A DNA stretch of 10,153 nt, taken from assembly GCA_949287345.1 (NCBI GenBank), contig CASEGD010000023.1:1-10153 (forward strand). The letters run 5' to 3'. Below the pieces are notes generated by a model. That model did no database searches. It saw only the letters and a list, made by a program, of their open reading frames with translations, and was not told the origin of the DNA. The DNA comes from an uncultured Phascolarctobacterium sp. Lineage in GTDB: Bacteria > Bacillota > Negativicutes > Acidaminococcales > Acidaminococcaceae. Below, piece by piece: positions 6,675 through 6,959 of this stretch (position 1 is the stretch's first letter; the number at the start of each line of letters is the position of its first letter). The position numbers were made by a program, and so were the translations under genes.

Positions 6675-6703
6675 TTGCTTTTTATAATGAACCGTGCTAT
6701 AAT
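6675..6703 (+). promoter_or_regulatory. Promoter of the antisense RNA (antitoxin)
   Basis: TTGCTT at 6675-6680, exactly 17 bp, then TATAAT at 6698-6703 with a TGC extension directly before it. It begins 5 bp after the thiC stop and faces no long reading frame on its strand, only a terminator about 45 nt after the expected start near 6710. The -10 sits inside a perfect 6-bp dyad (CGTGCT 6693-6698, AGCACG 6707-6712). Confidence 0.8.
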
Positions 6704-6709
6704 GTAAGC

Positions 6710-6743
6710 ACGAAAAGGGATTGATGGTTTCCGAAAGGTGCAC
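6710..6743 (+). repeat. Direct repeat DR1 (antisense RNA copy)
   Basis: Shares with DR2 (6859-6897), in the same order and on the same strand, ACGAAAA, GGGATT, GTTTCC, then RAAA (G here, A in DR2), then TGCAC, with spacers differing by one or two bases. The two promoters converge, so direct repeats in DNA become complementary segments in the two RNAs. Confidence 0.75.
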
Positions 6744-6751
6744 ATCAAAAG

Positions 6752-6784
6752 AAAAACCGGGAGCTGCAACTCCCGGTTTTTTAT
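6752..6784. terminator. Bidirectional terminator shared by toxin mRNA, antisense RNA and thiC
   Basis: A perfect 11-bp stem AAAACCGGGAG (6753-6763) / CTCCCGGTTTT (6770-6780) with loop CTGCAA. It is followed by TTTTTTAT on the plus strand and by TTTTTCTTTT on the minus strand, so it works in both directions. It lies 13 nt after the stop of the small peptide gene and is the first terminator after thiC. Confidence 0.93.
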
Positions 6785-6797
6785 GTGCTGGCCGTGT

Positions 6798-6887
6798 TTA
6801 CATATATCTGTCCAGCCACTTGCAAATATAGTACGCTGCTATACTTGCTGCGACAGATACGAAAAATGGGATTATAATTGTTTCCAA
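6798..6887 (-). CDS. 29-residue hydrophobic peptide, putative Fst-like type I toxin
   Basis: A tiny single-pass membrane peptide. It reads METIIIPFFV, then SVAASIAAYY, then ICKWLDRYM, starting at TTG. Residues 4-21 form one transmembrane helix; the tail C22-K23-W24-L25-D26-R27 is polar. A proline early in the helix followed by FV, and WLD-R after it, recall the Fst/Lpt toxin pattern, though the proline-to-tryptophan distance is about one helical turn longer than I remember for those. Translation signals are excellent: AAGGAGG (6903-6897) 9 nt before TTG, with a consensus-like promoter upstream. The ribosome site is held in a hairpin and the start region is complementary to the convergent RNA at 6710-6784. 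By analogy it would damage the membrane when unrepressed. A harmless small membrane regulator is the alternative. Confidence 0.75.
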   Translation of the reverse strand: METIIIPFFVSVAASIAAYYICKWLDRYM

Positions 6888-6897
6888 AAAGATGCAC
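6859..6897 (+). repeat. Direct repeat DR2 (toxin start-region copy)
   Basis: The same blocks as DR1: ACGAAAA (6859-6865), GGGATT (6868-6873), GTTTCC (6880-6885), TGCAC (6893-6897). On the minus strand these cover the last base of the Shine-Dalgarno, the TTG start and codons 2-10 of the small peptide gene, so pairing with the antisense RNA would block ribosome loading. Confidence 0.75.
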
Positions 6898-6917
6898 CTC
6901 CTTCCTACCGGAAAGAG
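6898..6917 (-). promoter_or_regulatory. Shine-Dalgarno-sequestering 5' hairpin of the toxin mRNA
   Basis: CTCTTTCC (6917-6910) pairs along its full 8 bp (one U-G) with GGAAGGAG (6905-6898), loop GGTA. The 3' arm contains most of the AAGGAGG ribosome site, so the nascent mRNA should be translated poorly unless this opens. The Fst mRNA has a comparable inhibitory 5' stem. Confidence 0.7.
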
Positions 6918-6930
6918 TCACGGCTTTTAT

Positions 6931-6959
6931 ATTATGCTTGAAAAGTAAAAATTAGTCAA
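6931..6959 (-). promoter_or_regulatory. Promoter of the small toxin-like gene
   Basis: TTGACT at 6959-6954, exactly 17 bp, CATAAT at 6936-6931. The predicted start near 6924 gives a 5' leader of about 37 nt and an mRNA of about 180 nt ending at the shared terminator, close to the roughly 210 nt of pAD1 RNA I. Confidence 0.8.

Follow-up and report, generated by a model that had tools for sequence, protein, structure and literature searches.

A 10,153-nt stretch of DNA from an uncultured Phascolarctobacterium sp. (assembly GCA_949287345.1, contig CASEGD010000023.1; "the window", whose positions serve as coordinates here) carries at 6675-6959 what is very probably a chromosomal type I toxin-antitoxin module with a mechanism like that of pAD1 par; both the transcription of the locus and the toxicity of its peptide are predictions. 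A preliminary description had already read this window locus as par/Fst-type, and that reading is borne out by complementarity of the putative antitoxin RNA to the toxin start region, covariation in the toxin messenger RNA (mRNA), purifying selection, one-sided toxin loss and a profile match to Fst; its anatomy is correct, and its mechanism very probably so. The mechanism is known. Within the searches made, the novelty lies in how large and widespread the clade of peptides with the signature YICKWLD is, which the family models we tried leave unnamed, and in its several copies with separate pairing and its antitoxin loci that lack a toxin.

The toxin mRNA (RNA I) would encode a one-helix membrane peptide, keeping its ribosome site within a 5' stem-loop, with the 5' end of the RNA clamped to the region past the stop codon. 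RNA II, from the opposite strand, would end at the common hairpin and pair through its positions 2-37 with RNA I from the Shine-Dalgarno sequence to about codon 9, blocking translation; where in this stretch pairing would start is likewise a matter of prediction. If RNA II ran short, the peptide would be made and would harm the cell at its membrane. The pairing sequence differs from copy to copy in the genome, so that the copies probably give one another no protection and would act separately in the cell.

Elements of the Window Locus

The toxin open reading frame (ORF; 6798..6887, minus strand) has 29 codons, starts at TTG and encodes METIIIPFFVSVAASIAAYYICKWLDRYM. Its Shine-Dalgarno sequence, AGGAGG (6897..6902, minus strand), lies mostly within a 5' stem-loop, CUCUUUCC-GGUA-GGAAGGAG (6898..6917, minus strand), which covers the ribosome site and is supported by the RNA fold and by covariation. 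The same evidence supports a long-range helix between GCCGUG (6919..6924, minus strand) and CACGGC directly past the stop codon (6791..6796, minus strand); across the wider family, this helix is weakly supported. The promoter of RNA I (6931..6959, minus strand) consists of TTGACT (6959-6954) and CATAAT (6936-6931) separated by 17 bp; it was found in a promoter scan, and its -10 element aligns in relatives. From this promoter and the terminator we predict an RNA I of 175 nt (6750..6924, minus strand).

On the plus strand, TTGCTT (6675-6680) and TATAAT with a TG extension (6698-6703), again 17 bp apart, form a promoter (6675..6703), read by eye and present in other copies as well, that would drive a 75-nt antitoxin RNA (RNA II, 6710..6784) with ends predicted in the same way. 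Its -35 element is weak, matching the consensus at 3/6 positions, and TTGCTT recurs in other copies; this promoter is absent from the scanner's list, in which the plus-strand match is another site (6850-6878). Both RNAs would end at a two-way intrinsic terminator (6752..6781), a hairpin with T-runs on both sides that the terminator tool listed for the minus strand only. The facing promoters with 17-bp spacers, the bidirectional terminator and the 29-codon ORF with a near-perfect ribosome site that had been described previously are thus all present. A direct repeat (6711..6746, plus strand) takes up almost all of the 5' half of RNA II and is complementary to the toxin mRNA start region, with a predicted duplex of -38.9 kcal/mol; sequence comparison places the matching repeat at 6860..6900 (plus strand), over part of the Shine-Dalgarno sequence, the start codon and toxin codons 1-9. 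By alignment score, the window repeat is equalled by 1 of 300 shuffles.

Predicted Pairing Is Specific to Each Copy

A DNA search identified three module copies in the same genome besides that of the window, and a protein search a fifth; two of the own-genome copies start with ATG, versus TTG in the window copy. Although the pairing sequence differs per copy, the cognate toxin/RNA II duplex is the strongest in 5/5 rows of the 5 x 5 own-genome table, with energies for the window toxin of -39.2 (cognate) and -20.0 to -35.1 (non-cognate). A set of 30 loci from the genus, the family and a second family of the class reduces to 26 non-redundant ones, and the cognate duplex is again best in 22 of these. 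For 27 of the 28 complete toxins in six genomes of the genus, the opposite-strand repeat is equalled by at most 3/300 shuffles; the repeat of the remaining toxin (G002:C13:9304) is weak, with 24/300 shuffles as good. The 28 do not include the toxin at G003:C10, which is cut by a contig end. Contigs break within modules at G003:C10, C11 and C24, where similar copies probably confuse the assembly.

Conservation of the peptide and of the whole module, which the preliminary description had named as a check, is seen in most loci of a wider set. The DNA pattern [YH]YICKW-[LF]-D had at least 118 matches among named genomes and 36 among virus contigs, and 158 hits were filtered to 116 distinct loci (the wide set). 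In 91/116 loci, the 220 nt downstream of the toxin itself are a strictly better match to the toxin start than any of the downstream regions of the 115 other loci. Mean alignment scores are 14.5 for cognate, 7.3 for non-cognate and 7.2 for shuffled combinations; 94 loci score 12 or more, and the match covers the start codon in 75 of these. Duplex energies behave in the same way (cognate, -44.2; non-cognate, -27.3; upstream control of 113 loci, -29.5), the cognate duplex being best in 79/116 and among the top five in 102/116. The toxin -10 element is present in 106/116 relatives (43% in shuffles), a reverse-strand -10 element in 108/116 (57% in shuffles) and a hairpin past the stop codon in 100/116 (6/116 in shuffles). 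This hairpin has a T-tail on the toxin side in 70/116 loci and on both sides in 44/116, compared with 0 and 0 in shuffles.

Selection and RNA Structure

The ORF is under purifying selection: in a set of 21 ORFs, each 29 codons long, codons 10-29 have a pN/pS of 0.24, versus 0.54 for codons 2-9, the antisense target. RNA I has a predicted fold of -63 kcal/mol (z -5.5), better than 200/200 shuffles, composed of the long-range helix between the 5' end and the post-stop region, the ribosome-site stem-loop, a hairpin within the coding sequence and the terminator. RNA II (folded as 6709-6783) forms a short 5' structure and the terminator, and its fold (z -4.6) is likewise better than 200/200 shuffles. 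In 24 aligned toxin mRNAs of the genus and family, 95.4% of the cells of the named structures are paired, versus 39.5-48.2% when the structure is slid along the alignment, and 19 of 41 RNA I pairs vary on both sides, 8 of the 19 in the terminator. The ribosome-site 5' stem-loop and the long-range 5' helix, both par traits, are found in these 24 copies.

Toxins Are Lost While Antitoxins Are Kept

We identified five antitoxin RNA loci that have no toxin, in 4/6 genomes of the genus, versus 0/28 toxins without an antisense repeat (one of these repeats being weak). At the thiC site of the window locus, G002, G003 and G004 carry an orthologue of the module; the alignment with G005 stops at 6684, the module not being there; and G001 retains the promoter, body and terminator of RNA II and has no toxin ORF. 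The other toxin-less loci are G003:C14:112554, where the window genome has its C96 copy; G003:C15:33886, which adjoins a complete copy; G004:C25:8941, whose site corresponds to the complete G003:C15 copy and in which a remnant of the toxin promoter can be seen by eye; and G005:C3:5077. Three of the five (extracts L214, 1900-2020; L243; L244, ~430-570; L245; L246) lie at sites that hold a complete module elsewhere. We left out of this count G001:C2:348653 (L247), a hairpin in which no RNA II promoter was seen by eye, and G003:C24 and G003:C11, where the contig ends at the RNA II gene and a toxin may have been cut off. When orphan antitoxins were matched to toxins, the G004 orphan fitted best the G003 toxin at the corresponding site (L030), and no clear toxin partner was found for the others (best scores of all five, 9.5-14.5). 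Similarly, orz-only loci of E. coli, as presented in the available text of PMC11264685, keep a type I antitoxin without its toxin; they differ in toxin family (ZorO) and host.

One-sided loss of the toxin with retention of the antitoxin is the pattern predicted for a toxin and its antidote, and it bears on two other explanations of the window locus. The peptide could be a small, regulated, non-toxic membrane protein, a helper of a membrane complex tuned by the antisense RNA: its one helix, with the conserved YICKWLD end, might serve to bind a partner, thiC-side copies occur in 4/6 genomes of the genus, and toxicity is itself a prediction. We regard this as unlikely, since the absence of the toxin beside a kept antisense RNA gene at five sites is expected of a toxin and not of a useful protein, copy number and sites vary, relatives occur on plasmids and viral contigs, and the peptide is related to Fst. 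Alternatively, the module may once have been active and now be silent in this genome, as the weak -35 element of RNA II and the toxin-less remnants in sister genomes might suggest; but the promoters, ribosome site, frame, repeat and terminator of the window copy are intact, as are, by reading, the same elements in the thiC orthologues of G002, G003 and G004, making such a relic very improbable.

Relation to Fst and par

For comparison with Fst, we ran the NCBIfam Fst model (NF033608) on 15 Enterococcus genomes, 8 of which scored above its cut-off, and examined 12 enterococcal loci. ORFs were picked in 11 of these (12 ORFs, one plainly non-Fst), and none in L259; L255 and L260 encode an identical peptide. 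The start region recurs ~80-120 nt past the stop codon in 10/11 plausible Fst ORFs, a geometry close to that of the window locus, and no repeat was found in L253, which lies beside a contig end. A profile of 40 relatives (A1) aligned with nine enterococcal Fst peptides in hhalign with a probability of 93.8 and an E value of 1.7e-7, and 0/100 full-column and 0/100 helix-only shuffles scored as high. The alignment has one single-residue gap, in the helix; W and D are the sole residues invariant between the A1 relatives and the Fst set, and the PxxxG of Fst aligns with S/AxxxS/G/N/E of the YICKWLD family. The remark of the preliminary description that the helix is longer than in Fst is unneeded, because the window row aligns both its start and WLD with Fst without an internal gap.

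The Fst/Ldr superfamily is described by Weaver (2020; PMC7472228, available text) as having W between the membrane helix and a charged C terminus and, in the majority of members, not all, P/D/S/TxxxG(C) in the helix; the same text sets out the anatomy of par and describes a pneumococcal clade having DxxxG. The window peptide has W24 between its helix and a weakly charged tail (D, R). This W is invariant among relatives, in 40/40 peptides of the A1 alignment and in 116/116 of the wide set, whose search pattern includes it. The [PDST]xxxG motif occurs in 46/116 relatives and in the own-genome C29 and C76 copies (SVMAG). The par architecture of convergent transcripts, a two-way terminator and repeats over the ribosome site and start codon is found in silico.

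Overall, the window locus resembles pAD1 par, E. faecalis par EF0409 and S. mutans fst-Sm/srSm, as these are portrayed in the text of PMC7472228 at hand, in its convergent RNAs and two-way terminator, its direct repeats over the ribosome site and start codon, its 5' stem-loop and long-range helix, its W after one helix and its copy-specific pairing; the fst-Sm and srSm RNAs are given as ~200 and ~70 nt in the available part of PMC3543317. Unlike the PxxxG of Fst, the helix of most of the 116 YICKWLD members has S/AxxxS/G/N, and YICKW is conserved before LD (part of the search pattern). The window copy further differs in having no YUNR loop and in missing the Pfam and NCBIfam Fst cut-offs.

Evidence against a par-Type Module

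Several results weigh against a par-type module. In the window alone, promoters (2 found versus 1.3 expected) and terminators (2 versus 1.1) are no better than chance, so that the case for the locus rests on conservation. In the wide set, the own downstream region is not strictly first in 25/116 loci, and 13 of those 25 rank it 13th or lower; 11 of the 13 (all except L063 and L116) were inspected by eye and showed no convincing same-strand repeat, L143 being doubtful, so that a number of relatives may be relics with a toxin alone or may have another mode of regulation. In this set the long-range 5' helix finds hardly any support (strictly best in 2/116 loci, top five in 17/116), and one of five covariation measures, the count of further pair types, is not above shuffles (198/500 as high). 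The window terminator loop (UGCA, in the context UUGCAG, by eye) is not a YUNR U-turn, and the window helix has SVAAS, that is SxxxS, in place of [PDST]xxxG. Helix-only shuffles of the profile still average 19.3, against 30.7 for the real one, so that the WLD end carries much of the Fst match. PF13955 matches neither the window peptide nor the set of relatives; it is above cut-off in 0/41 of the relatives' genomes, and its weak matches in 15 are noise, because 7/14 control genomes match as well. NF033608 does not match the window peptide, and 4/40 relatives match it weakly, the best at E 0.028, short of its cut-off.

Toxin-like ORFs with a ribosome site and no clear downstream antisense repeat are found in L080, L110 and L156 (Selenomonadaceae) and in L054, L064, L086, L096, L120 and L130. 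In place of a direct repeat, L051 has a sequence matching the reverse complement of the toxin start (GTGTCTACGTG) ~120-170 nt past the ORF stop; as seen by eye, it lies after a second same-strand TATAAT and is perhaps an inverted antitoxin gene.

Database Families and Pneumococcal SpF66

Among the matches listed, with bit scores for the first relative and the proteins scored singly, no curated cut-off of Pfam, NCBIfam or PADLOC was reached by the window peptide or the 40 relatives, and a PDB profile search gave one match, at E 0.94. Weak matches to the Clostridioides difficile type I toxin family NF047374 in 17/40 relatives (best E 2.4e-5) raise the question of whether the window locus belongs there. 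Toxins of C. difficile are, in the available text of PMC6563280, also small hydrophobic peptides with a charged end and have a convergent, overlapping antitoxin RNA of mostly cognate specificity; but their tail is described as lysine-rich and they are often longer, at 34-53 residues. The window peptide does not match the model, and the best of ten relatives scored singly (the E 2.4e-5 member not among them) reached 18.9 bits versus a cut-off of 60, which leaves membership extremely unlikely. The PHROG family phrog_738, whose function is unassigned, matches 35/40 relatives with E values no higher than 1 (best, 1.4e-5) and is perhaps the YICKWLD toxin.

Rfam RF02442 (SpF66_sRNA) matches 5/28 family loci (L042, L045, L062, L178 and L198) above its gathering score and over the whole model, covering their toxin mRNA (1659-1882 in L178). 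The window locus reaches 10.2 bits against the cut-off of 42, over the terminator alone, and an Rfam scan of the window gave nothing near a gathering score. Read manually, with 14 positions hidden, the RF02442 consensus is MSLILELVLTIIADVIAG...VCKWLDGKE. On this sequence comparison, the "non-coding" SpF66 of Rfam is probably a toxin mRNA encoding a related peptide, and because the consensus holds ADVIAG followed by VCKWLD, the pneumococcal DxxxG clade (Weaver 2020) probably belongs to the YICKWLD family. In the text available to us, F66 (srn502) is reported as a 239-nt RNA on Northern blots with a mutant fitness of 0 in the nasopharynx (Mann 2012, PMC3395615), and its neighbor F67 is assigned to the Fst family in the PneumoBrowse2 annotation (PMC12323649). 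Since SpF66 was seen on Northern blots and F67 is annotated as Fst, an RNA of the window-locus kind has probably been detected already in another host. A pneumococcal RNA whose disruption is reported to lower colonization fitness would then be a toxin mRNA.

Spread and Possible Roles

A profile search of genomes sampled from Negativicutes found matches, some of the weakest possibly due to chance, in 25/120 genomes and 13/64 genera, with up to 8 per genome. Relatives with YICKWLD occur in Clostridia and viral contigs as well. Among plasmid records, 360 match the window peptide with E values of 10 or less and 482 match an enterococcal relative with E values of 0.01 or less, Enterococcus contributing 450 of the latter; 13 phage records match weakly. 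YICKWLD was not mentioned in a full-text literature search, the scope of which excluded surveys of Fst homologues, where single members may be listed. For type I toxin-antitoxin systems in Negativicutes, the one paper found concerned thioredoxins, and of 205 papers matched in a search that included Phascolarctobacterium, none of the 8 listed contains that name; the 20 papers listed of 191 for SpF66 dealt with malaria vaccines.

These results place par-type addiction modules in Negativicutes, where one genome often has several, and supply a peptide signature that is missing from the family models tried. We tentatively propose, as a possibility that we hold less probable than its failure, that the YICKWLD peptides form a large unnamed sister clade of Fst, in Negativicutes, Clostridia, Lactobacillales plasmids and phages, whose copies pair with themselves alone and whose toxin halves are repeatedly lost, and that the stand-alone antitoxin RNAs could protect against incoming plasmid or phage toxins of matching start sequence. 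The toxin-less loci offer a natural series in which retention of a type I antitoxin for use can be set against simple decay.

Among further observations, L141, L154, L186 and L095 each have two matches to the YICKWLD pattern ~0.4-1 kb apart on the same contig. Three tRNA genes lie close to the own-genome C76 copy (L037, 922-1151), and a contig of an Oscillospiraceae metagenome-assembled genome carries a Twister-sister ribozyme match of 70.7 bits (L050, 1025-1105, minus strand).
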